Virus record (IMG/VR): IMGVR_UViG_3300049811_000125
Coordinates: 1-28,276 of that record
DNA: 28,276 nucleotides
Origin: a virus
Reading direction: 5' to 3' (one strand)
A program made the translations under genes and the position numbers. This document shows positions 4,783 through 27,634 of this stretch, one piece after another. Under the pieces are notes generated by a model that saw only the letters and a list, made by a program, of their open reading frames with translations, was not told where the DNA came from and did not search any database. Numbering within the stretch: the first letter of the stretch is position 1; the number at the start of each line of letters is the position of its first letter.

Positions 4783-7700
4783 CTACGGCGTGCCATTAAA
4801 CACTTGCCATGGGGCGGAAATTGACAATGGTGCGCCATCATAAATCTTTGGGTATGAACCGCCTATTACTGTTTCCATTACGTCGTCTACGGCTATTGAA
4901 GTGCCGCGCGATAATGTTGACTGGTAGTTGTCTAACACTTGACTTGCCGTTAACGCTTTTTCGTGAATAGTAATATTTGAATACGTGGCAGTCATTTGAC
5001 CAGCGCCATTGTATGACCCATTCCAAAACCATTTTGAGTTTATGCTTTGATCTATACACTCATTATAATTTCCAAAGTAGTTATATATTAAACTTCTTGA
5101 ATTATTAGCAGTACCTTCCCAGACACCGGGATATACCGAGCCATCAAAGTATGCTGTGTTGTAGCCATCATTCACAAGCATTATTCCGGCAACATAAAAC
5201 TTTTCAGTGTTTGCAGCGCCAACAAAGCCAATAAACACCGTGGCTTTATCCGTAGATGATGGCGTATAAAATGTAGCATAGTATCTAGTCCATTTAGTAG
5301 AAACTGCCTGCTGCTCAAATGTTATTCTTGAGTTTCTTAACTCAGTGCCCGCCGAGTTTTTCCATTGAATGTATGCAATAGGCTGCCTAGAGGTCGTAGA
5401 TGCCCTAGCATAAAATGACAACGTATAATATTTTAACTGACCAAGTTGTGTAACATCAGTATATAGCGAGCACTGGTATCCGGTAGCGGCAGCGCCGCCC
5501 GTCCATGTAGCGGTTAGCGCAGTAGACCCTACTGGATGCTCAATGCTTTCACTGCTCATCGTTGTACTTGCGCTGGCGTTCCAGGCAGTCGTTCCTTGTG
5601 GTACTGGATTTACAATATGGTTTATTGTAGTGCTAAAGTTATTTGGAATGAATACAAGGTGGTGCCATTTCCCGCGTACAAAATTAGTTGTGCCACTGGA
5701 TATTGCAACTCCATCTAGGTAAACAGCCTGCATATTAGTATATGTAATGCCAGTAGATGTATAATAAATTCCACACTTTGTTGAAAAAGAAGTTCTATGC
5801 TCTGCTACCGTTAACGTAGTTCCCGGCGCAGGGTTTGCATCGTCATACCTAATCCATTGCTCAAATGTTCCAATGTTCTGCTGGCGCGGCATTGATGACA
5901 TGTAGCCTTCGTCGTTAGACGCTGAAGTTAAATATTTTTTATCCAGTTCTAAACGCATTACAGATGGTACGTTGTCTTCATAGGCTGTAACAGAAGCACC
6001 CTGCTCAAGTTGTACCTCGTCAACGTACAAAACCTCGCCACTTGATATATTTGTAATAAAAAATCTCAGCCATGCGCTACTAGTGTTTGCTGGCGATGTA
6101 ATAGTTGCCGATATAGTTGTCCATCCACTATCTACCGAAATCACTGAGTTGGTGTCATATGGGGAAATAGTAGCCCCCGCTGCATCAACCCACAGAATTC
6201 GTATAAACGCACTACAAGAATTTCCAATATTTGATTTTACTTTAGCGCTCAGAGTATATTGGGTGGACGGCGACAATCCAGCAATTGAAATTGGTGGGCC
6301 GTCAGTAAAGCCGTATGGGTCATACGCATATGGAGAGGGCAGTGGATTGCTATACTCAAATTGTACATCAGCAATGTAATACGTTTCATTTGCTAGCCAA
6401 CCATCAGAGTTGTTGCCGGTAACGTAGAGAGATAGTGTAACACCGGCCACATTTGCCGGGTTAGTTAACGATACAGTTTCCCATTCTCCGACCGTGGCGG
6501 TATTTAGCACTGCACTCGTCGTACCCACAATAGTATTACTAGAGTTATATTCATCTATGTAGACAGTTAACGGCCTGGCAACAGTTTTATATATTTTAAG
6601 TGTAACTCTGTACTGGACGCCAGTCCAGGCCATAGCATAACGCTTGCCGTTTGTTCTGGTTAGACCAAAAGTGTGATTTGAGCCAGCGGCAGTTTTAGTA
6701 ATTTTTGCTACAGGAAGTCCTGAATCTCTTTTAATATCACTTGTTTGGGTTGCCGTACAGTTACTCGTATAGTCAAATGCGTTGTCGCCAAAATCTGTTA
6801 CAAAATGCTTAAACCAGTTTCTAGAACCATTTGCAATGGTAGCAAATTCAGCCCGATCTTTTAACGCTGTTACTTTAAGGCTTGAGCCACCGGAAACATA
6901 TTCTTCAGTAGACCGCTCCAAGATACACCATGCATCTCGCCATGGCACCCAATTACTGGTATCATATGTAAATCCTCCATTTGGAACAAAGTTCTTAGAC
7001 GCCGACCCCTTTGTAAACTTGATGCCATTTTGAGCAAACTGGTTTATGATTGGTGTTGATTTGGTGGGAACAGTAAAACTGCCGGTCGGCTTTAGAACAT
7101 GATTCGCCGTCTTAGTCTTAAACTTAACGTTATCCAGCATTGTTAATGACATATATTGTAATGTTGCTGGACGATAAATAAGGTTTGTTGTTTCAAATGC
7201 CGCGCGCAGGTAGTATTGCGGGGCGGTAAGCGACGGGCAATACCCACCTTTAATGGGCGATGGCTCTCCACCTGATGTAAGTTGTGTAGGTGGATTTGTA
7301 ACTACCCCGCCATACAACTTAACAGCATTATTATTTGGCCCCCACTCAATCTTTGCGTCATCAATGGATTCATATACGCCATTAAAGTCAAACGTAAATT
7401 CGGCATATCCCTTCATGCAGATATTTACATCGTTGGCTAATGGTAAGTAGTAATTACCGTTGGAAGTTTGGTCTGAAACAAATGACGCTGTGGATGGTAT
7501 ATACTCATGGATTTTAACATTTTTTATTGCTGTTCCAAGTCCATTTTGACCGTCAATTCCGGCCCCCAATGTCAACTCAGTTGAGTATGACAACTGGAAA
7601 GAACTATGTGACGAAGTATCATATTCTGTAACAATCCATGTTCCGGCGTCTAAGGCTGCGCTAAACAAGTCACCAGACCATGCCAGGAGTACATAATGCC

Positions 7701-15891: not shown

Positions 15892-15898
15892 ATTATAC
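15892..15898 (-). promoter_or_regulatory. GTATAAT promoter box opening the tail-fibre operon
   Basis: Minus-strand TGGTATAAT, an extended -10 form, lies 9 nt before the ATG at 15882 and overlaps the stop codon of the HNH gene. No good -35 is seen. Confidence 0.55.
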
Positions 15899-16354
15899 CA
15901 CTGGCAGTTTATCGCGCTTGCGCGAATTACACGTTCTACATAAAGGTTGTATGTTCTCTATTACGTTAGCGCCACCTTTTGATAGCGGAATAATATGATC
16001 CTGTGTAATATCTTCTGCGCTGCCACAGTAGGCACACCTGTAATTAAACCGCTCTAGCATTGCTTGCCAGTCAACAATATCTATTTTTCCACTTTTCAAA
16101 GCATACTTACGCCTACGTTGATCGTCTCGTTTAACTTGTAAGTACTTTTCGTAGTTTAACTTTTTCCAACGATCTTTTTGCGCGCGGCTTTTATCTGGAT
16201 TTCTAACCACCCAATCTTTTATTTGAGCATTTTTACATGACTTACACTTACTTGTCACGCCATATTTTCCGTTAGCCTGCCGGTGAAAATACTCTGGTGT
16301 TGCTAGCAATCTATCATTACACCCAGAACATACTTTATATTGTGCAGGAGTCAT
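15893..16354 (-). CDS. free-standing HNH homing-type endonuclease
   Basis: 153 aa from the chosen ATG. The C-terminal HNH nuclease domain shows the paired CAYCG and CRTCNSRK zinc knuckles around the ITQDHIIPLSKGG core (catalytic DH) and ENIQPLCRTCN. The N-terminal third has two further Cys pairs (VCSGC, KCKSC), a zinc-finger arrangement seen in several phage HNH proteins, then a basic linker. The ATG at 16354 lies inside the last codons of the ribonucleotide reductase gene. Upstream TTG and GTG codons in frame could add 6-7 residues. A free-standing HNH directly beside an intein-bearing RNR is a typical mobile-endonuclease position, and it may promote its own spread into related phages. Confidence 0.85.
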   Translation of the reverse strand: MTPAQYKVCSGCNDRLLATPEYFHRQANGKYGVTSKCKSCKNAQIKDWVVRNPDKSRAQKDRWKKLNYEKYLQVKRDDQRRRKYALKSGKIDIVDWQAMLERFNYRCAYCGSAEDITQDHIIPLSKGGANVIENIQPLCRTCNSRKRDKLPVV

Positions 16355-19300
16355 TGCTACAATACCTATCACCAATTGCCTCTAGATTATCAACGCCATC
16401 ATATATTGCCGAAAAGTCAATCTTTTTAATTTGACCGATATACGAATTGTACTCATCTTCCGTAATTTGAGTATATGGTTGCTGCGGATATGATTCATTA
16501 CTCATGGGCAAAAATGACACTGCTTTCAGCGACCCCTCATGTAATCTTAATGCTGGAACAAGGAGGTGCTTTTCTGTTTCCTTATCAAAAGAGACAGTGA
16601 CAGAAACACCATTGTCGCTCCAATAATGCTGTGCTTTTGCAGCCAGACCGATTTTTTCAAATACTGAAACTTCTCGCTCTGAGCGATGGGCATTAGACTT
16701 CACCGGAAAATACACAACATAAGTATCATGGCTAACAAGGTCTTTTTCGATCTTGTACCCAGCAGCCCTGAATAGTGGAATCATTTTGTCTGATCCGCCG
16801 AATCTGATAGCGCGCATATAGTGCTTGCCCCCTGGCCCCCAGTGGATGCCGGGGGAGGCACCCGACAAAAGGCTTACCGTGCCTTCTGGCTTGATAGTAG
16901 TAACACGGTTAGATTCACGCACGCACAGCCACTCAGAATAAATCTTGTCTAGGCGACGAACCTCTTGATAGCCAGCATCCATCCACTCAAGAATTTCTGG
17001 GAGTCCATGCTCATCAATTACGTCAGTAATACCAGTAAGCGACAGGCCAATGCGACGGTTTCTTTGCATAACACTATTTGTTTTAGTCCATGGCGTAGGA
17101 ACAAGTGTCACTGTTTTAGCATATAGGAACGCAAACTTTAATGTTCGCAAAAAATCTTCTTTTGACTCGGCATTTTGTAAGTGAACAGTTACAAGGGTAC
17201 ACATTTCTTGTGACTCTAGAGGCTGTTCTGAATTGTGCGCGTAGAGTCCATTTGCGTCAAAAGCGTGCACATTGTCTACCTCTGCGTCCCACACTTCCTG
17301 CCGACCGACAAACTCAAATGAGTCAACTGTTGCCACGAATGGCTTTGTATACTCTTGCTTTCTCCAAGAAAGCGCGTGTTGCAGTTTCTCTGACTTTGCC
17401 TTGTGTAAGAATCCGATCTTGTCTGCATAGCGAAGTGCGCTGTCTGCGGAAATAACTAGCCTCCATGAAGCCTTGGTCTTATAGTAAGCCATTCCACCCT
17501 TACCGTCCGGTAAAAGAGATTCGCCAGCATCACGAGCCTTATAGATTTTTGAGTTGATTCCAAGACGGAGAAGCATTCTTTGCACTACAAGAAGCAAATC
17601 TCTACTGGACTGCCCTAGCCTAATGCTAAGCCCCTTATATGAATCTGACTCATTATAACCTTCTACATGACCGTCTGCATCAAACAAGCCTCGCAAGAAC
17701 CCTTTATAGAACTCGCTTGACTCGCCCTCCAAGTGAGTAACGTCATGCTTGTTGTCAAGTTTCATACCATATTTATAAGTCAATGGAGTAATACTCATCT
17801 TTTGATATGGACGGTCTGATACCGCAGACCACCCGCCCCAGTCCGACCTAGTTGCATGCTCTTCAGCGATCTTTTGAGTGTAGTCTGCAATATCACGATC
17901 ATCTCCGTCAATATCCCATACCTTAAGGTGTGCGGAATATACTGGCATACCGGCCTTAATATACCCACGGTCACGCTGGGCGACCTTATTCTGATTGCTG
18001 AAGTTGCCGTCGCCTACAAAATGCCCCAGAACATACCCGTCGCCATAGTTGTCTGTATTGCCCCATGAGATATCATTGTGGCTATTAAGCCTAATTTTAT
18101 CACCAGAACGCAAGTCTTGAGCCTGAACCCAATCTCCACCCTCCTTCAGCATTCTATGCTCTGGGGTAAGTTCTATGACGAACCCCTCCTTTGTAGAGAG
18201 CCTATAAACATCTCCAACTCCTGAAACCCATGGCTGGGACGCATGATATTCTTTACCGTCTACAATCGCAGTGAACTCGCTATCAATATCGCAGATTTGG
18301 CGCGGCCCGTCAGAAGTCATAATACTTGTAGTAGGCGCAACGCAGCATGGGTTAAAACCAACTACACGGCGATCCTTGTCGTCGGGGGCGTCCATCATTC
18401 TTCCGCGCGATTTGGCAACATCAAGCCATACAAAACCAGGCTCACCATTATTAACAATTAAATCAAGATACTTTTCATAATCTGCTCCAACAGGAACGTT
18501 AATTGAGTTGTTAGAGGCCCAGGCCCAGCCAGGATTATTTGGATCATATGAATTCCGCTCTGGGTAAACGCTTGCATTTTTTAAATCTAAGAATTTTGCA
18601 TCATCATAATCGCCCAACATAATTTCCGCACTGCGGCGAGTTGATCCAGCGATAACACAAGCGCCAATCATATTGAAAATATCTACAATTGTTTCAGAGT
18701 CAAGTGTTCTGCCGACTCGCTTCTCAAAAATTACCTCAAGCCTGTCGTGCAACATAATAAGTGGCTCTGGCCCAGATGCTAGCCCTCCAAAAGTCTTTAG
18801 CGGAGTCCCCTTCGGGCGAATAAGGCTATAGTCAAACTTAATTGGAGCATTATGGCGAAGGTATGAATTAATCAGAAGGCGTAGAGATTCTGCCCAACCC
18901 TCCCTAGAATCTGGAACTACAAATGTTTCAACGTTACCGGAGCGCTCACGGATTTCAATATGCTTTTTTGCGCCTAGCATATCAGCGCCGACCCCGACCC
19001 CATACATGAGCGCTAACATAGCCCACTGAAATACCGCTCCGGGGTCGTGTCGGTCAATGTCTCCGGTAGAAATAACAGCACAGTTTTGCAGGGATGCGCT
19101 ATTGCCATCCATCACCTGCTTACTGCCCATTTTCTCTAGACCGCGCCCAGGTGGAGTCCATTTTAGATTAAACATTCGATCAAAGAACTCTTTGGCGCTG
19201 GCTTGCCCTTTTTGATCATTCCACTCCAACTTATTTGTTTTTGCATGGCTTTTCTGAATTGAATATGTGCCATTCGTTACACGAACGCATGTATCCAGCC

Positions 19301-19460
19301 AGCGCTCTTTAGTTCCGTCACTATTAAGATTGGAGTAGGTACGCAAAAATGTCAATTCTCCTAAACTGTTACTCCCTGCATCACGGAATCCGAACGGTGG
19401 CTCCACCGTCTTGTACTTCTCAATAAAATCAGGCAACAGCCTAAAAGAAAAATCAGTCAT
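16335..19460 (-). CDS. nrdJ: adenosylcobalamin-dependent ribonucleoside-triphosphate reductase (class II), with intein
   Basis: 1041 aa; about 670 aa after splicing, somewhat shorter than the 739-aa Lactobacillus enzyme. It reduces ribonucleotides to deoxyribonucleotides using vitamin B12 coenzyme and so supplies dNTPs for phage replication. Visible features of the monomeric RTPR type: SLQNCAVIS (Cys127, redox pair member), radical-site Cys372 in FNPC directly before the intein, Cys at +11 after splicing (QEMCTL) as the redox partner, the PEGTVSLLSGASPG-like loop, and the C-terminal CSNDSC pair that re-reduces the active site. The ATG has GTAGGAGAG upstream. A small hairpin lies before the gene. 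It overlaps the downstream HNH gene. Confidence in the class is high because the Cys spacings match. Confidence 0.95.
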   Translation of the reverse strand: MTDFSFRLLPDFIEKYKTVEPPFGFRDAGSNSLGELTFLRTYSNLNSDGTKERWLDTCVRVTNGTYSIQKSHAKTNKLEWNDQKGQASAKEFFDRMFNLKWTPPGRGLEKMGSKQVMDGNSASLQNCAVISTGDIDRHDPGAVFQWAMLALMYGVGVGADMLGAKKHIEIRERSGNVETFVVPDSREGWAESLRLLINSYLRHNAPIKFDYSLIRPKGTPLKTFGGLASGPEPLIMLHDRLEVIFEKRVGRTLDSETIVDIFNMIGACVIAGSTRRSAEIMLGDYDDAKFLDLKNASVYPERNSYDPNNPGWAWASNNSINVPVGADYEKYLDLIVNNGEPGFVWLDVAKSRGRMMDAPDDKDRRVVGFNPCCVAPTTSIMTSDGPRQICDIDSEFTAIVDGKEYHASQPWVSGVGDVYRLSTKEGFVIELTPEHRMLKEGGDWVQAQDLRSGDKIRLNSHNDISWGNTDNYGDGYVLGHFVGDGNFSNQNKVAQRDRGYIKAGMPVYSAHLKVWDIDGDDRDIADYTQKIAEEHATRSDWGGWSAVSDRPYQKMSITPLTYKYGMKLDNKHDVTHLEGESSEFYKGFLRGLFDADGHVEGYNESDSYKGLSIRLGQSSRDLLLVVQRMLLRLGINSKIYKARDAGESLLPDGKGGMAYYKTKASWRLVISADSALRYADKIGFLHKAKSEKLQHALSWRKQEYTKPFVATVDSFEFVGRQEVWDAEVDNVHAFDANGLYAHNSEQPLESQEMCTLVTVHLQNAESKEDFLRTLKFAFLYAKTVTLVPTPWTKTNSVMQRNRRIGLSLTGITDVIDEHGLPEILEWMDAGYQEVRRLDKIYSEWLCVRESNRVTTIKPEGTVSLLSGASPGIHWGPGGKHYMRAIRFGGSDKMIPLFRAAGYKIEKDLVSHDTYVVYFPVKSNAHRSEREVSVFEKIGLAAKAQHYWSDNGVSVTVSFDKETEKHLLVPALRLHEGSLKAVSFLPMSNESYPQQPYTQITEDEYNSYIGQIKKIDFSAIYDGVDNLEAIGDRYCSNDSCTI
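17232..18344 (-). mobile_element. LAGLIDADG intein in the RNR active-site loop
   Basis: 371 aa (Cys373 to Asn743), inserted between the radical Cys372 and Ser744; splicing would restore NPC-SEQPLE. Splice features: Cys1 (CVAPTTSIMTSDG), block B near LTPEHRM, block F around VWDAEVDNVHAFDANG, the penultimate His and terminal Asn (YAHN), and Ser as the +1 residue. Two LAGLIDADG motifs, YVLGHFVGDG (about 476-485) and FLRGLFDADG (about 588-597), carry the acidic catalytic residues, so the homing endonuclease may be active. All key residues are present. Confidence 0.95.
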
Positions 19461-21927: not shown

Positions 21928-22455
21928 ATGATTATAGAATACTACGCTCCCTCCCCGCCAGCACTAGAATCTATTTTAAAGTGTGACTATTGTGGCCAGG
22001 AGAGACGAGTACGCAGAGTAAAAAATCTAATAAATAAAAACGAACATCCGTGTCGGTCTTGCTCTAATAAAATAAATGGAGTGAAAAAGCGTGGTAAGCC
22101 ATCGTGGAATTCAGGTAAAAAATATTCTATTCGAGAAGTAGAAAAAACTTCATATGTAGACAGTTTTGGGTACGTACAGGTTTGGTGCGGGCGAGGTGAA
22201 GGTAGCCGTGGCAGAAAAGATGGGTATAGACTTCAGCATCACTTAGTAATAGAAGACTCCCTTGGCCGACCTCTTGAAAAAGGAGAAATTGTCCATCATA
22301 TAGATGGAAACAAGTTAAACAACTCTATAGATAATTTGTATTTATGTAAAAGTGTGGCTGAGCATAGACAGATTCATGCACAACTAGAAAATGTTGCAAT
22401 GCAATTAGTAGCCTCTGGAGTAATTACTTTTAATGATGGGGTATACAGGGTATAA
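21928..22455 (+). CDS. free-standing HNH endonuclease
   Basis: 175 aa. An N-terminal zinc finger is suggested by CDYC near 19-22 and PCRSCSNK near 41-48. The HNH core lies at about 108-150: YRLQHHLVIEDSLGRPL, GEIVHHIDGNKLNNSIDNL and LCKSVAEHRQIHAQLE, with the HH, N and H residues of the HNH_3-type beta-beta-alpha-metal fold. It probably makes a site-specific nick or break and behaves as a mobile gene. It sits directly after thyX, a frequent target neighbourhood for such endonucleases in phages. It is convergent with the membrane-protein gene, whose stop codon starts at the very next base. Confidence 0.88.
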   Translation: MIIEYYAPSPPALESILKCDYCGQERRVRRVKNLINKNEHPCRSCSNKINGVKKRGKPSWNSGKKYSIREVEKTSYVDSFGYVQVWCGRGEGSRGRKDGYRLQHHLVIEDSLGRPLEKGEIVHHIDGNKLNNSIDNLYLCKSVAEHRQIHAQLENVAMQLVASGVITFNDGVYRV

Positions 22456-24302: not shown

Positions 24303-24542
24303 ATGGCCATATACACACCCCTACCTGAATGCCCTAAGTGTTCCCACCAATTGCACCCCTACCTATGGACAGACTCGCCAGTACTTGAATGGGTCGCAAA
24401 GTGTCTAGCGTGTGGATTCACTGGCAGTGATCCGCGCATGACGATATGCGCGCGCTACGGAACTAGCACGTATGCCGCACCGTACAGATGTTCGCATTGC
24501 GGAGACTTTCATCCCGTCCGCGCGCTTACCCCTACCCCCTAG
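24303..24542 (+). CDS. small multi-zinc-ribbon protein
   Basis: 79 aa with three Cys pairs: CPKC (9-12), CLAC (34-37) and CSHC (63-66). The first two could form one zinc ribbon, the third a partial knuckle with nearby His (DFHP). Such tiny zinc ribbons are common in actinophage accessory regions, where they may alter transcription or bind RNA or protein, but nothing specific is shown here. TAAGGA is 6-7 nt upstream of ATG. The terminal codons are part of a perfect hairpin, so termination and gene end overlap. Confidence 0.75.
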   Translation: MAIYTPLPECPKCSHQLHPYLWTDSPVLEWVAKCLACGFTGSDPRMTICARYGTSTYAAPYRCSHCGDFHPVRALTPTP

Positions 24543-24551
24543 GGGTAAGCG
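24523..24551 (+). terminator. 12-bp hairpin overlapping gene end
   Basis: Arms CGCTTACCCCTA and TAGGGGTAAGCG with loop CCCCC; the stop codon TAG at 24540-24542 is inside it. A second hairpin follows immediately. Confidence 0.65.
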
Positions 24552-24553
24552 AC

Positions 24554-24587
24554 ATACCCCCTATGGGTACATACCCGTAGGGGGTAT
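24554..24587 (+). terminator. second tandem hairpin
   Basis: ATACCCCCTA pairs with TAGGGGGTAT, and GGGTA with TACCC further in, with one T-G wobble between and a tight CA turn. Together with the preceding hairpin it makes a tandem terminator-like structure. Confidence 0.6.
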
Positions 24588-24660: not shown

Positions 24661-24688
24661 CACAGACGTTCGAACCCCACGGGCGGGC

Positions 24689-24704
24689 GGCGCGGAGCGC
24701 TGCC
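24689..24704. repeat. cassette-boundary repeat, copy 1
   Basis: GGCGCGGAGCGCTGCC, one base different from the other four copies (GGCGCGAAGCGCTGCC). It lies between the left gene series and cassette 1. Confidence 0.8.
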
Positions 24705-24733
24705 GGGGCATGGTGTCCTTACGATCCGGCGTG

Positions 24734-24780
24734 AAAATACCCCGATTTTTGGGGGAGGGCTTGCGCCCTCCCCCGTGGGG
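24734..24780 (-). terminator. terminator of cassette 1 minus-strand gene
   Basis: A 10-bp stem GGGGGAGGGC/GCCCTCCCCC with a 4-nt loop, flanked on the minus strand by outer CCCC and GGGG, then TATTTT. It is almost identical to the one at 25529-25576. It lies directly after the stop of the minus-strand zinc-ribbon gene. Confidence 0.75.
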
Positions 24781-24781
24781 A

Positions 24782-25105
24782 TTAGATCGTAGGTGCCCAA
24801 GGGTCGGGCAGGAAGTCGATCCATGGGCCGTCTTCGACCCATTCGTCAGGCTCCATGAAGTCGTCTGCAACGTCCCAGAGCATGCATTCTTCGCACGCCT
24901 TGACGTTGTTTTCGCCCACCTCACAAACCGTGTGACGCGGCGTGTAGTGGCGCAGGATAACCGTATTGACCTCAGTCATATCGGCTTCCAACGTCATGCA
25001 CAGAATGTCACTGCCAGTGTCCACCCCCTCGCAGGTGCGAACCGGCATCTTGCATTGGGGGCAACGCCCCTCAGGTGTGGGATTGACCCACTTGTTTGTA
25101 CCCAT
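24782..25105 (-). CDS. cassette 1 zinc-ribbon protein, paralogue of 26197-26490
   Basis: 107 aa. MGTNKWVNPTPEGRCPQCKM shows a CPQC knuckle with a third Cys (TCEGVD) close by. Later come NTVILRHYTPRHTVCEVG and ACEEC. The spacing of these elements matches the cassette 3 protein (CPVC, HCQGVE, DTTILRHEN, CAVG, CVVC), so the two are diverged paralogues. The C-terminus is acidic and Trp-rich (DEWVEDGPWIDFLPDPWAP). A metal-binding regulator or host-interaction protein is possible; no family is recognised. TACCGT lies 6 nt before ATG, so it is probably leaderless. It shares the CRP-like palindrome with the plus-strand gene at 25225. Confidence 0.8.
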   Translation of the reverse strand: MGTNKWVNPTPEGRCPQCKMPVRTCEGVDTGSDILCMTLEADMTEVNTVILRHYTPRHTVCEVGENNVKACEECMLWDVADDFMEPDEWVEDGPWIDFLPDPWAPTI

Positions 25106-25111
25106 GCCCTT

Positions 25112-25141
25112 ACGGTACCGCAGACCTCAGACAGACCGCAA
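25112..25141 (-). promoter_or_regulatory. cassette 1 minus promoter
   Basis: Minus strand: TTGCGG, 18 nt, TACCGT, 6 nt, ATG at 25105. The palindrome centre lies 65.5 bp upstream of the start. Confidence 0.5.
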
Positions 25142-25162
25142 CCGGAAAACCCTAATTACTTA

Positions 25163-25178
25163 TGTGACCTAGGTCACA
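25163..25178. promoter_or_regulatory. CRP/GlxR-like palindrome, cassette 1
   Basis: TGTGACCTAGGTCACA, a perfect 16-bp palindrome, matches the CRP consensus TGTGA-N6-TCACA and the GlxR form with central TA. It lies between divergent leaderless promoters, about 10 bp upstream of the plus-strand -35. Confidence 0.8.
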
Positions 25179-25188
25179 CTTTTTCGTA

Positions 25189-25218
25189 TAGACAAACTCT
25201 CGCCGCCCATGCTCTAAT
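25189..25218 (+). promoter_or_regulatory. cassette 1 plus promoter
   Basis: TAGACA, an 18-nt spacer, TCTAAT, then 6 nt to the ATG at 25225. The palindrome centre lies 54.5 bp upstream of the start codon. Confidence 0.65.
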
Positions 25219-25224
25219 TGAGTC

Positions 25225-25431
25225 ATGGACACCTACATCTCTGAGCCTCAGTCGCTCAGCAAGGCCGAAGTTTCCGCCCATAATGACAACATTGTCATTT
25301 TGAACACGCTGCAATGGTTCGCCACGCCGAACACCGCCCACATCGAGGTTCGATCATATGTTCGATGGATCGACGCCGAGCCGGTCGGATCGTGGCAGTC
25401 AGTCACAGTCGGAGTCACCCGCAGGCGCTAA
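25225..25431 (+). CDS. cassette 1 plus-strand small protein, unknown
   Basis: 68 aa. The N-terminal half is polar and helical (DTYISEPQSLSKAEVSAHND), followed by IVILNTLQWFATPNTAHIEV and RSYVRWIDAEPVGSWQSV, which read as beta strands. There is no Cys pair and no known motif. Its promoter gives an mRNA starting at the A of ATG. It shares the central palindrome with the divergent zinc-ribbon gene. After the stop come GC-rich hairpins and the boundary repeat. Confidence 0.7.
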   Translation: MDTYISEPQSLSKAEVSAHNDNIVILNTLQWFATPNTAHIEVRSYVRWIDAEPVGSWQSVTVGVTRRR

Positions 25432-25485
25432 GGGCACCATAAGTCTCCCCCTGGTATGGACAAGGGGAGGCCCGCCCTGGCGGGC

Positions 25486-25501
25486 GGCGCGAAGCGCTGC
25501 C
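25486..25501. repeat. cassette-boundary repeat, copy 2
   Basis: GGCGCGAAGCGCTGCC between cassettes 1 and 2; just upstream are CCCGCCC-TGG-CGGGCGG arms. It is followed by the minus-strand terminator of cassette 2. Confidence 0.8.
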
Positions 25502-25528
25502 GCCCCTGGTTTTGTTTATGATCGGGGC

Positions 25529-25576
25529 AAAAAATACCCCGATTTTGGGGGAGGGCTTGCGCCCTCCCCCGTGGGG
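25529..25576 (-). terminator. terminator of cassette 2 minus-strand gene
   Basis: A 10-bp stem GGGGGAGGGC/GCCCTCCCCC with a 4-nt loop, outer CCCC/GGGG, then TATTTTTT on the minus strand. It starts 2 nt after the stop of the 25578 gene. The T-run makes this the best intrinsic terminator of the island. Confidence 0.85.
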
Positions 25577-25577
25577 A

Positions 25578-25775
25578 TTAATCCTCCCTGAAGTAAGTAG
25601 CCTCAATGATGGCGGCGTTGAGTTCGTCGGTGTCCACAATTGCCACCAATTTGAGTGCAAGGCTCTTGAGGAACGCCTCACGCTCGAATGAGTAGGTCAT
25701 GGTGTCCAGAATTTGAGACACCTTGTTGGTGTTGGTGTTGGTGCGGTTTTCTGAGTAATACCCTGTTGTGTTCAT
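25578..25775 (-). CDS. cassette 2 minus-strand small protein, unknown
   Basis: 65 aa. The start MNTTGYYSENRTNTNTNK is Asn/Thr-rich, followed by a helical segment VSQILDTMTYSFEREAFLKS and LALKLVAIVDTDELNAAIIE. It has no Cys pair. I chose the inner ATG because CAGAAT lies exactly 6 nt before it and TAGACA 17 nt further upstream; 19 extra residues of open frame would overlap the promoter. Function unknown. Confidence 0.75.
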   Translation of the reverse strand: MNTTGYYSENRTNTNTNKVSQILDTMTYSFEREAFLKSLALKLVAIVDTDELNAAIIEATYFRED

Positions 25776-25781
25776 GTTTTT

Positions 25782-25810
25782 ATTCTGCCTTAGTTCTAGG
25801 CCCGTGTCTA
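25782..25810 (-). promoter_or_regulatory. cassette 2 minus promoter
   Basis: Minus strand: TAGACA, 17 nt, CAGAAT, 6 nt, ATG at 25775. The palindrome centre is 64.5 bp upstream. Confidence 0.65.
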
Positions 25811-25831
25811 CCCCAAAACCCATATTTCTCA

Positions 25832-25847
25832 TGTGACTTAGATCACA
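25832..25847. promoter_or_regulatory. CRP/GlxR-like palindrome, cassette 2
   Basis: TGTGACTTAGATCACA, matching TGTGANNTANNTCACA, imperfect only in the centre. It lies between two divergent leaderless genes. Confidence 0.78.
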
Positions 25848-25857
25848 CTTTTTGGAG

Positions 25858-25886
25858 TTGTGATTTTGCTTGAACTACGGCACAAT
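25858..25886 (+). promoter_or_regulatory. cassette 2 plus promoter
   Basis: TTGTGA, 17 nt, CACAAT, 6 nt, ATG at 25893. Palindrome centre to start is 53.5 bp. Confidence 0.6.
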
Positions 25887-25892
25887 GAAGGT

Positions 25893-26081
25893 ATGAACAC
25901 AAACATAGGTGACACGGTAAAGGTTTCCGGCGAATTGTTCTCTGATCATCCCTCAATGATGGGGAAAAAGGTTTCGGGCATCGTGACCTCAATTGACACG
26001 GTTGACGGAATTGTCTACGCATTTGTCTATTCGGAGCGTTTTGGGTACTGCGCTCCCATTATGGTTGGTTACTCACAGTAA
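25893..26081 (+). CDS. cassette 2 plus-strand small beta protein, unknown
   Basis: 62 aa. NIGDTVKVSGELFSDHPSMM, KKVSGIVTSIDTVDGIVYAF and VYSERFGYCAPIMVGYSQ read as a compact five-stranded beta barrel (KOW/SH3-like in pattern, not proven). The start is the inner ATG, 6 nt after CACAAT; an upstream ATG at 25860 would lie within the promoter spacer. Its stop is followed 1 nt later by the 62-bp boundary repeat. Confidence 0.75.
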   Translation: MNTNIGDTVKVSGELFSDHPSMMGKKVSGIVTSIDTVDGIVYAFVYSERFGYCAPIMVGYSQ

Positions 26082-26082
26082 C

Positions 26083-26144
26083 CACCGCCCGCCCACGGGC
26101 GGGACGGCGCGAAGCGCTGCCGCCCCTCGCGGCTTTTACGAGGG
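26083..26144. repeat. 62-bp direct repeat, copy A (contains boundary repeat 3)
   Basis: Identical over 62 bp to 26906-26967, 823 bp away. It contains CCCGCCC-AC-GGGCGGG, GGCGCGAAGCGCTGCC (26106-26121) and a CCCCTCG/CGAGG-type hairpin. It starts directly after the cassette 2 plus-strand stop, so it probably ends that transcript. Confidence 0.9.
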
Positions 26145-26164
26145 CCTTCCAGAATCCCCCAATT

Positions 26165-26192
26165 CTAGGGGGAGCCTCACGGCTCCCCCTAG
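26165..26192 (-). terminator. 12-bp hairpin after cassette 3 minus-strand gene
   Basis: Arms CTAGGGGGAGCC and GGCTCCCCCTAG enclose loop TCAC. It lies 4 nt after the stop of 26197-26490 in the minus direction. No T-run follows. Confidence 0.65.
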
Positions 26193-26196
26193 CCTG

Positions 26197-26490
26197 TCAC
26201 ATGTGGCAGGTTTGATCGGTGGCGATTAGGCAGACCACGCATAGATCGTCTGTGCCGTCGTTGTCAATGCCCACGGCGCACCATTCGCCGTTAGCGTTTT
26301 CGTGCCGTAGGATCGTCGTGTCCTGGCCTTTCCATGGCTTACGGCGACCCTCCGCTACCAGGCAACCGTATTCGGCGGGCTGGTAGTAACTAGCGCCATA
26401 CAATTCGACGCCCTGGCAGTGAATCACTGTCTCGTGACAGACCGGACACTTGTAATCGTCTGTGGAGTCGATCCACGTATCTGTGCTCAT
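26197..26490 (-). CDS. cassette 3 zinc-ribbon protein, paralogue of 24782-25105
   Basis: 97 aa from the inner ATG. MSTDTWIDSTDDYKCPVCHE with nearby HCQGVE, later DTTILRHEN, EWCAVG, DLCVVC and a final DQTCHM. It shares the pattern W-x(5-9)-CPxC, CxGV, TxILRH, CxVG and CxxC with the cassette 1 protein. Seven or more cysteines suggest one or two zinc sites. The start is chosen because GACAAT lies exactly 6 nt before it and TTGTGC is 18 nt further upstream; 12 upstream residues of open frame would overlap the promoter. Confidence 0.8.
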   Translation of the reverse strand: MSTDTWIDSTDDYKCPVCHETVIHCQGVELYGASYYQPAEYGCLVAEGRRKPWKGQDTTILRHENANGEWCAVGIDNDGTDDLCVVCLIATDQTCHM

Positions 26491-26496
26491 GCCTAT

Positions 26497-26526
26497 ATTG
26501 TCGCATGGCCTGACTGTCTGGCACAA
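26497..26526 (-). promoter_or_regulatory. cassette 3 minus promoter
   Basis: Minus strand: TTGTGC, 18 nt, GACAAT, 6 nt, ATG at 26490. Palindrome centre is 54.5 bp upstream. Confidence 0.6.
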
Positions 26527-26536
26527 GCCCTAGAGA

Positions 26537-26552
26537 TGTGACCTACGTCACA
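26537..26552. promoter_or_regulatory. CRP/GlxR-like palindrome, cassette 3
   Basis: TGTGACCTACGTCACA, matching TGTGANNTANNTCACA, with arms TGTGAC/GTCACA intact. It sits 11 bp upstream of a perfect TTGACA. Confidence 0.8.
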
Positions 26553-26563
26553 CTGAAAACCTA

Positions 26564-26593
26564 TTGACAGGATATTCACGCTACACCCATAAT
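26564..26593 (+). promoter_or_regulatory. cassette 3 plus promoter
   Basis: TTGACA, 18 nt, CATAAT, 6 nt, ATG at 26600. Palindrome centre to start is 55.5 bp. This is the strongest-looking promoter of the island. Confidence 0.75.
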
Positions 26594-26599
26594 GGATAC

Positions 26600-26800
26600 A
26601 TGAGCACAACACACTTCCCAGACAGTTACTACACCCAACGTGATCCGCGCGAAACTAGCCTAGTGCTGGTCTGCGAGTCCTGCGAGTCTGAAAAACTGCG
26701 GGACGTTCTGGTAGCCAATGGCTACGCCGCATGGTGGTGCGAGTGTGGCGAACAAAACGTAACCGATATAGGTGATCTTGAGCCGGGAGTTGATTACTGA
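26600..26800 (+). CDS. cassette 3 plus-strand zinc-ribbon-like protein
   Basis: 66 aa from the inner ATG, 6 nt after CATAAT; 12 more residues of open frame lie upstream but overlap the promoter. Cysteines in VCESCES (29-32 region) and WWCECGE (about 48-52) form two close pairs suited to a small zinc site. The rest is acidic. The stop TGA overlaps the ATG of the next small gene, so the two are translated together. Function unknown. Confidence 0.78.
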   Translation: MSTTHFPDSYYTQRDPRETSLVLVCESCESEKLRDVLVANGYAAWWCECGEQNVTDIGDLEPGVDY

Positions 26801-26904
26801 TGGAAGCCTACTGCCCCAACTGCAATGAGCCGGTGTGGAAGTACGCCCAACGTTGCCCGATGTGTGGGCGTCCGACTTGGACGGATGAATACTGGGAAGA
26901 TTAG
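26800..26904 (+). CDS. 34-aa zinc-ribbon peptide
   Basis: The ATG overlaps the TGA of the previous gene (ATGA), and the product is MEAYCPNCNEPVWKYAQRCP followed by MCGRPTWTDEYWED. It is almost only a classical zinc ribbon: CPNC, 10 residues, CPMC. It is too short for common gene-length cutoffs, but the coupling and the intact Cys pairs make it convincing. It ends 1 nt before the 62-bp repeat. Confidence 0.75.
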   Translation: MEAYCPNCNEPVWKYAQRCPMCGRPTWTDEYWED

Positions 26905-26905
26905 A

Positions 26906-26967
26906 CACCGCCCGCCCACGGGCGGGACGGCGCGAAGCGCTGCCGCCCCTCGCGGCTTTTACGAGGG
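26906..26967. repeat. 62-bp direct repeat, copy B (contains boundary repeat 4)
   Basis: Identical to 26083-26144; contains GGCGCGAAGCGCTGCC at 26929-26944. In this copy the hairpin GCCCCTCG (26945-26952) and CGAGGGGC (26962-26969) is complete, with a 9-nt loop. As with copy A, it starts 1 nt after a plus-strand stop. Confidence 0.9.
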
Positions 26968-26987
26968 GCGTTGGAAAACCCCCGATT

Positions 26988-27191
26988 CTACCAGAGATTC
27001 CAAGGCTCAGGGAACCTGTCAGGCCATTGGATGTGTCCCCGGCAGTACCATGCCCAGTAGGCTGTCTCACGATCCTGGCAGTCTTCGCATTCCCAAATAC
27101 CCTCGAATTCGTGGTATGTGGCATCTTCGCCGTTGGCGGGCTGGTCGCAAATATCGCACTGAACGTCTTTTGCGTAATCAATTTGTTCCAT
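26988..27191 (-). CDS. cassette 4 minus-strand zinc-ribbon protein
   Basis: 67 aa. CDICDQ (12-15) and WECEDCQDRE (about 34-38) give the CxxC...CxxC of a small zinc ribbon; the C-terminal part is Trp-rich (AYWAWYCRGHIQWPDRFPEP). A CxxC-W-rich peptide like this could bind nucleic acid or protein; no family is recognised. GACAAT lies 6 nt before ATG and a perfect TTGACA 17 nt further upstream, so it is leaderless. It is not obviously homologous to the cassette 1 and 3 proteins beyond the Cys pairs. Confidence 0.8.
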   Translation of the reverse strand: MEQIDYAKDVQCDICDQPANGEDATYHEFEGIWECEDCQDRETAYWAWYCRGHIQWPDRFPEPWNLW

Positions 27192-27197
27192 GCCTCA

Positions 27198-27226
27198 ATT
27201 GTCTGCCCATCGCAGGCAATTGTCAA
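27198..27226 (-). promoter_or_regulatory. cassette 4 minus promoter
   Basis: Minus strand: TTGACA, 17 nt, GACAAT, 6 nt, ATG at 27191. Palindrome centre is 53.5 bp upstream. Confidence 0.75.
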
Positions 27227-27236
27227 TACTTAAAAA

Positions 27237-27252
27237 TGTGACTTAGGTCACA
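27237..27252. promoter_or_regulatory. CRP/GlxR-like palindrome, cassette 4
   Basis: TGTGACTTAGGTCACA, matching TGTGANNTANNTCACA, between divergent promoters, 11 bp upstream of the plus-strand TTGACT. Confidence 0.8.
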
Positions 27253-27263
27253 CGGAAAAGTGC

Positions 27264-27292
27264 TTGACTCTCACCTTGCTATCCCCCATACT
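27264..27292 (+). promoter_or_regulatory. cassette 4 plus promoter
   Basis: TTGACT, 17 nt, CATACT. The likely start near 27299 is 54.5 bp from the palindrome centre, as at the other plus promoters, but here a 23-nt leader with AAAAGGAGA precedes ATG: the only cassette gene with a Shine-Dalgarno. Confidence 0.7.
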
Positions 27293-27321
27293 GGAACTAC
27301 CAACCAAAAGGAGACGCCAAA

Positions 27322-27528
27322 ATGGCTAAGGTCGAAAAAATCAGCGGAATCAACATCTTCCTGTCAGACGATGAGGCCGGTGCGCTTGCATCGCTGCTTA
27401 ACTGGGGGCTTGACTACAGTTCCCGTCGCGAACTCGGATTGGCCGATCTTGGCCAATTGCTGAACATGAACGCACCGTACTTCTCGGTGTCGTTCGGCAC
27501 CAAGGCGACCATTGGTGACGCTGAGTAA
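27322..27528 (+). CDS. cassette 4 plus-strand small protein, unknown
   Basis: 68 aa. AKVEKISGINIFLSDDEAGA and LASLLNWGLDYSSRRELGLA then LGQLLNMNAPYFSVSFGTK: a mixed alpha/beta small protein with no Cys. The segment FLSDDEAGALASLLNWGLD has the look of a compact domain like those in small phage proteins of unknown function. AAAAGGAGA gives good translation initiation. Its terminator at 27536-27560 follows 7 nt after the stop. Confidence 0.78.
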   Translation: MAKVEKISGINIFLSDDEAGALASLLNWGLDYSSRRELGLADLGQLLNMNAPYFSVSFGTKATIGDAE

Positions 27529-27535
27529 TCACCAT

Positions 27536-27560
27536 GGGTGGGGGCTACCGGCCCCCACCC
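27536..27560 (+). terminator. terminator after cassette 4
   Basis: Arms GGGTGGGGGC and GCCCCCACCC form a perfect 10-bp stem with loop TACCG, followed by a second small stem CCCCGC-TTC-GCGGGG and the boundary repeat. Confidence 0.75.
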
Positions 27561-27575
27561 CCGCTTCGCGGGGAC

Positions 27576-27591
27576 GGCGCGAAGCGCTGCC
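27576..27591. repeat. cassette-boundary repeat, copy 5
   Basis: GGCGCGAAGCGCTGCC marks the right end of the GC-rich island; sequence becomes AT-rich within about 15 bp beyond it. Confidence 0.85.
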
Positions 27592-27634
27592 CCAAAATTC
27601 ACCATTTACGACGCACGTATTTAATTTCCTGATT

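Follow-up and report, generated by a model that had tools for sequence, protein, structure and literature searches.

The viral DNA analyzed here, positions 1–28,276 of IMG/VR virus record IMGVR_UViG_3300049811_000125 (28,276 nucleotides, probably a fragment; hereafter the window), contains at 24.8–27.6 kb four tandem cassettes of divergent small genes, each built around an exact TGTGANNTANNTCACA palindrome. As read from sequence, these palindromes are probably binding sites of a CRP/GlxR-family activator of an actinobacterial host, which would activate the genes of this phage arm in a class-I-like manner. Host CRP acting as an activator is the best reading because no cyclic-nucleotide-binding (cNMP-binding) domain was found in the 24 phage records searched, a Rex operator is excluded, the sites fit the GlxR form, and their positions resemble those of activating CRP sites in Mycobacterium tuberculosis. 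We observed the motif, its confinement to one arm, its geometry relative to promoters and its phasing in independent phages, and detected no phage cNMP-binding protein; CRP occupancy, an activating and not a repressing effect, the early timing and the role of the genes, and any need for cyclic AMP (cAMP) are inferences.

The palindromes and their promoters

The sites named in an earlier note on this DNA, at 25163–25178 (TGTGACCTAGGTCACA), 25832–25847 (TGTGACTTAGATCACA), 26537–26552 (TGTGACCTACGTCACA) and 27237–27252 (TGTGACTTAGGTCACA), are all exact and lie between divergent small genes, with 0.00 such palindromes expected from shuffles. Its statement that none occurs elsewhere in the window held even under looser matching, as the window contains no further copy of the palindrome at up to two mismatches and no TGTGAN6TCACA site with one mismatch. 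In an unbiased count of all palindromes with 5-bp arms and gaps of 0–8, TGTGA-N6-TCACA ranks first in the window arm. The sites match both this 16-bp palindrome and the published binding form of GlxR, GTG-N8-CAC (PMC10033298). The published strong form for Streptomyces Crp, GTG(N)6GNCAC, overlaps the GlxR form by eye and so would not distinguish the two.

The same note had placed each site between divergent promoters, and a −35/−10 pair is indeed readable on both sides of every palindrome, giving eight promoters. At site 1, the rightward promoter (25189–25218, + strand) reads TAGACA (25189–25194) and TCTAAT (25213–25218), and the leftward promoter (25112–25141, − strand) TTGCGG and TACCGT, each with an ATG 12 nt after the start of the −10; the palindrome is centered at about −54.5 for the right gene and about −65.5 for the left. 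Site 2 (about −53.5 right, −64.5 left) is flanked by TTGTGA and CACAAT (25858–25886, +; predicted leaderless ATG at 25893) and by TAGACA and CAGAAT (25782–25810, −; predicted leaderless ATG at 25775). Around site 3 (about −55.5 right, −54.5 left) the pairs are TTGACA and CATAAT (26564–26593, +; predicted leaderless ATG at 26600) and TTGTGC and GACAAT (26497–26526, −; predicted leaderless ATG at 26490), and around site 4 (about −54.5 right, −53.5 left) TTGACT and CATACT (27264–27292, +) and TTGACA and GACAAT (27198–27226, −; predicted leaderless ATG at 27191). Some hexamers are weak, such as the TACCGT of the gene that starts at 25105, and a generic promoter scan detects only four of the eight promoters.

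The spacing between site and promoter is constant modulo one helical turn. The −35 lies 10–11 bases past the palindrome in six of the eight promoters and 21 bases past it in two, and all eight −10 elements begin 33–35 or 44–45 nt past the palindrome, which are two adjacent phases. Measured from the inferred start, the palindrome center falls at about −53.5 to −55.5 in six promoters and at −64.5/−65.5, one helical turn farther out, in the remaining two. Leaderless mRNAs are predicted for seven of the eight genes because the start codon, exactly 12 nt downstream of the −10 hexamer's first base, falls where transcription should begin; these seven start codons, 45–47 or 56–57 nt from the palindrome, therefore serve as independent promoter anchors. 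The eighth gene (27322) is leadered and has a Shine-Dalgarno sequence (AAAGGAG, 27307–27313). Leaderless starts were rejected as a general rule, since the relatives of 38% GC show 19 of them versus 13 expected.

We propose that a dimer of the host CRP would sit between two divergent sigma-70-type promoters and activate both by class-I-like contact with RNA polymerase, its center lying at about −54 or, one turn out, about −65. Upon infection, the host protein would turn on a whole set of small phage genes, most of them predicted to be leaderless, which are probably early genes for host takeover; the timing is suggested by gene type and by the position of the corresponding arm in the terminal repeat of the Streptomyces phage Karimac. 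Dependence on cAMP is implied by no result here, and CRP could be just a constitutively available activator.

Recurrence and helical phasing in other phages

A motif scan found 11 TGTGAN6TCACA sites in phage record G041 (L118, 74.6 kb), about 0.3–1.0 kb apart and 10 of them with a TA center, and the −10 begins about 32 nt past most of these palindromes, in phase with the window. No relative of the window capsid is detectable in G041, which carries two WhiB genes. Further scans yielded a group of motif-bearing contigs of about 35–39% GC. Related long contigs have 4–10 sites each, nearly all intergenic and mostly in an arm of the small-gene type; in the long relatives G045, G048, G060, G064, G070 and G072, whose capsid is a 43–58% homologue of the window's, nearly all exact sites lie within one arm of about 10–20 kb. 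The capsid was the only route to a further relative, G031, in which four sites form a cluster. TGTGA-N6-TCACA outnumbers all other gapped palindromes in each of the motif-bearing arms tested, and a reversed-pattern control gave 0 in every record except G055. The scan of relatives that the earlier note had proposed revealed no random scatter in genes: only 6 of 65 sites in relatives fall inside open reading frames (ORFs) of at least 80 amino acids, versus 55% of positions. Among the genes downstream of sites in relatives are DUF932, DUF1281-type and GP88-family members, with GP88 homologues (50%) coming after sites in G048 as well as in G041.

The distance from site to promoter is helically phased in this larger set as well. 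In 123 de-duplicated flanks from related phage arms, 47 good promoters were found versus 20 expected, and their −10 positions cluster at 33–35, 43–44, 53–55 and 63–65 (p = 2.5e-6 at 10.5 bp; all phasing p values are Rayleigh approximations over several tried periods, and related contigs may stay partly non-independent after de-duplication). An earlier, cruder test on single −10 hexamers gave p ∼0.06 at 10.5 bp. An IMG/VR scan for the palindrome with TTGACA 5–35 nt away, in which the sequences of the matches listed are diverse, placed 32 of the 102 de-duplicated matches listed at 10–11 nt, with a second peak at 21 nt (p ∼2e-7 among the matches listed); for contigs of 42–55% GC, 27 of 54 among the matches listed were at 10–11 nt (p ∼3e-12). 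A companion scan with TATAAT showed the same phase more weakly among the matches listed (p ∼1e-3). Helical phasing of the distance between site and promoter marks activators in contact with polymerase.

The early-end small genes of Vibrio phage ICP1 (L181/L620) offer a comparison from an unrelated phage with, unlike the window, a gammaproteobacterial host: seven exact CRP palindromes lie within about 5 kb (record positions 5140, 5649, 6348, 7195, 8199, 8274 and 10044), all in spaces annotated as intergenic and beside small ORFs. In the clearest ICP1 promoter, annotated as Porf17, TTGACA and the palindrome are 26 nt apart, an interval that resembles the class-I spacing of E. coli. Phage GIL01 likewise has promoters that are read by a host transcription factor, but there LexA is reported to repress lysogenic promoters (PMC4551915), whereas the window carries an activator-type array of CRP sites in a phage arm. 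We found no description of phage arrays of CRP/GlxR sites, the ICP1 palindromes included, in the literature searched, of which few subscription papers were reachable. We offer only tentatively the broader possibility that several unrelated virulent lineages of actinobacterial phages, and independently ICP1, evolved, in an arm of small takeover genes, up to about a dozen promoters that make up a CRP regulon, with the cAMP or energy state of the host gating the strength of takeover.

Most genes in phage arms have no known role, and how they are controlled has received no study, particularly where the hosts are uncultured aquatic actinobacteria. Across many such contigs, a recognizable, phased site for a host activator shows where promoters and transcription starts lie and probably which genes are co-regulated, and it suggests that borrowing a main host activator is a way for these phages to switch on takeover genes. 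If host CRP does drive them, the outcome of infection could hinge on the carbon and energy status of the host.

Other repeated elements were seen in these records. Throughout the G041 array (L118 1–9800), GGGTGTAGGTCT is repeated on the gene side downstream of the palindrome in nearly every unit, and a conserved block, ACTCTCTTC...GGGTGGGTGGGC...CCAACACAAACA, lies on the other side and ends near a hairpin; each unit possibly encodes a divergent small RNA. The G042/L219 and L238-type arrays were set aside as other motifs or unclear. G042 (57.6 kb, GC 66%) has 17 TGTGAN6TCACA matches, and the 13 in L219 are mostly part of a longer AGTTTGTGACATGTGTCACAAACT-like palindrome; this array probably consists of phage repressor operators rather than CRP sites. 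In L238 (6196–8991), from a 10-kb contig of 50% GC, TGTGACCTAGGTCACA occurs six times without variation, and a stretch of about 0.9 kb holds five of these copies.

Identity of the regulator and alternative readings

In M. tuberculosis, genes lowered in a crp mutant have CRP sites at −44.5, −54.5, −57.5, −59.5 and −88.5, divergent genes flank several of the strongest sites, and the abundance of CRP is estimated as about equal to that of ribosomes (PMC4117774). The window shares with actinobacterial CRP promoters (C. glutamicum GlxR, M. tuberculosis Rv3676) the TGTGA-N6-TCACA/GTG-N8-CAC palindrome, the location of strong sites between divergent genes, and a range of positions in which activating sites include −54.5 and −57.5 (PMC4117774, PMC10033298). 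It differs from them in being phage DNA, where the sites belong to tandem cassettes of small orphan genes, the palindromes are near-perfect and the spacing is much stricter.

The earlier note had linked the cassettes to a CRP-family regulator of either host or phage and had likened the motif to that of corynebacterial GlxR. Motif, spacing, helical phasing and recurrence in other phages support the link and a site that serves both divergent promoters. The host option is favored because no cNMP-binding domain was found in the 24 phage records searched, several of them about 100–118 kb long; a phage-encoded CRP regulon was rejected on the same result, the window itself being a fragment. The sites do fit the GlxR form, but the evidence on the host, namely WhiB in most relatives (14 of the 24 phage records) and structural genes like those of Streptomyces phages, says only that it is an actinobacterium and does not reach as far as a corynebacterium. 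A host search of bacterial genomes with the capsid profile gave three matches, all to irrelevant bacteria. The operator of Rex (NADH), with the consensus TTGTGAA-N4-TTCACAA, has A at half-site position 6; it was rejected because A is almost never found there (0 of 4 window sites, 0 of 65 in relatives).

Several observations weigh against activation by host CRP. The wiring to CRP sites is patchy among relatives: the closest capsid relatives that cover the syntenic region have 0–1 exact site, and TGTGAN6TCACA was not found in the first 40 kb of Karimac, which contains its arm. Most of the motif-rich relatives came from a motif search and are a biased sample, G031 having come via its capsid. The central TA is present in just 21 of the 65 sites of the 38% GC relatives, and the phase is off by about 2–3 bp from E. 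coli class I positions, taking lac for comparison. As for the refuting condition set by the earlier note, loss of the sites in relatives that keep the genes, retention is not traceable gene by gene in close relatives, because searches with two cassette proteins gave no relatives in phages (both searched) or in viral contigs (one searched).

A phage-encoded activator without a cAMP-binding domain could also have converged on the CRP motif and run a closed phage regulon. Phage-encoded regulators typically have a single operator arrayed along an arm, a known family is lacking for many small phage proteins, and the G042/L219 array, with 17 copies of a different, longer palindrome, TTTGTGACAYRTGTCACAAA, is probably of this type. 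We nevertheless consider such an activator rather unlikely: the same motif and phasing recur in phages that share little else (the window group and G041), the motif is also present in ICP1 and is the host regulator's own, and HTH_Crp_2 had no match in the actinophage records, a sub-threshold helix-turn-helix appearing in ICP1 only. Less likely still seems a scenario in which the arm is kept repressed or silent by host CRP or another protein and is freed upon infection or when cAMP changes. The palindrome overlaps no −35, −10 or start in any of the eight promoters, and the phasing points to an activator that touches polymerase. Repressing CRP sites in M. tuberculosis sit at the start site, although CRP there also binds many sites without clear effect (PMC4117774); that one site governs both directions, and that CRP is able to repress, would likewise suit a silencing role.

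We regard as very improbable a role of the palindromes purely as parts of a repeated DNA module (a terminator hairpin, or a recombination or packaging element) with no regulatory function, even though hairpins are repeated across the cassettes. T runs follow two of the four palindromes, and these two score as terminator-like. The palindromes were nevertheless rejected as terminators, because the other two do not score so and because all four are located where divergent genes have their 5′ ends, a place at which transcripts do not stop. A DNA module would also leave the phasing of the promoters unexplained, and the site is kept while genes and flanks differ.

Cassette genes and genomic setting

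The cassette genes encode orphan proteins of 34–107 amino acids, several with paired CxxC motifs, and none has a clear Pfam, PHROG or PADLOC family. Site 1 separates a Cys-rich gene (24782–25105, − strand, 107 amino acids, CPQC...CEEC) from a 68-residue orphan (25225–25431, +); site 2 lies between orphans of 65 residues (25578–25775, −) and 62 residues (25893–26081, +). To the left of site 3 is a Cys-rich gene of 97 residues (26197–26490, −), a paralogue of the 24782 gene (27% identity over 92 amino acids, E = 4e-8). A two-gene unit lies on its right, in which a Cys-rich gene (26600–26800, +, 66 residues) is followed by a zinc-ribbon-like gene with CPNC/CPMC (26800–26904, +, 34 residues) whose start overlaps the stop of the first. 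Site 4 is flanked by a Cys-rich ORF (26988–27191, −, 67 residues, CDIC...CEDC) and a 68-residue orphan (27322–27528, +), which has no relative in phages or viral contigs.

Repeat analysis identified a GC-rich hairpin in five copies (24689, 25486, 26106, 26929 and 27576), at or near convergent gene ends. Such hairpins occupy the convergent space left of cassette 1 (24675–24784), the spaces between cassettes 1 and 2 (25472–25580, terminator-like also in a terminator scan), 2 and 3 (26083–26192), and 3 and 4 (26906–26990), and the region after cassette 4 (27553–27595). Directly ahead of the cassettes, at 24523–24587, is a tight cluster of inverted repeats (TACCCCCTAGGGGTA, TACCCCCTATGGGTA, TACCCGTAGGGGGTA).

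The window portal shares 53–57% identity with Streptomyces BE-type phages, Karimac among these, and the capsid 61–64% with isolate-genome contigs of about 130 kb. In reverse, the window order is that of the left part of Karimac: small genes, a DUF2637-type gene, ThyX, glycosyltransferase, ribonucleotide reductase, portal and capsid (the labels DUF2637, glycosyltransferase and capsid were assigned in the window by position and by eye). By these sequence comparisons, the window is a piece of a relative of the Streptomyces BE-type phages (Stanwilliamsviridae), and its cassettes are on the arm side of ThyX, adjoining the small-gene arm. In Karimac the small-gene arm, about 12 kb long, forms a direct terminal repeat, in which genes 1–27 reappear as genes 259–285 at the other genome end; because the window is a fragment, placement of the cassettes inside or outside such a repeat is not readable. 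As in the window, many of the arm genes of Karimac are preceded by a terminator and then by a promoter of their own, but the repeat genes are mostly in one direction and lack the CRP-type palindrome. Several of them (L370 1–12000) have instead a AAAAGATCTT(G) palindrome upstream of a TTGxxx...TAGACT promoter, approximately where the window has its CRP palindrome.

Elsewhere in the window, the ribonucleotide reductase gene (16335–19460) is split by an intein with a LAGLIDADG endonuclease domain. HNH-type endonuclease ORFs were read from sequence beside ribonucleotide reductase (15893–16375) and beside ThyX (21928–22455), and a further one, supported by a family search, lies at the contig end (27930–28238).

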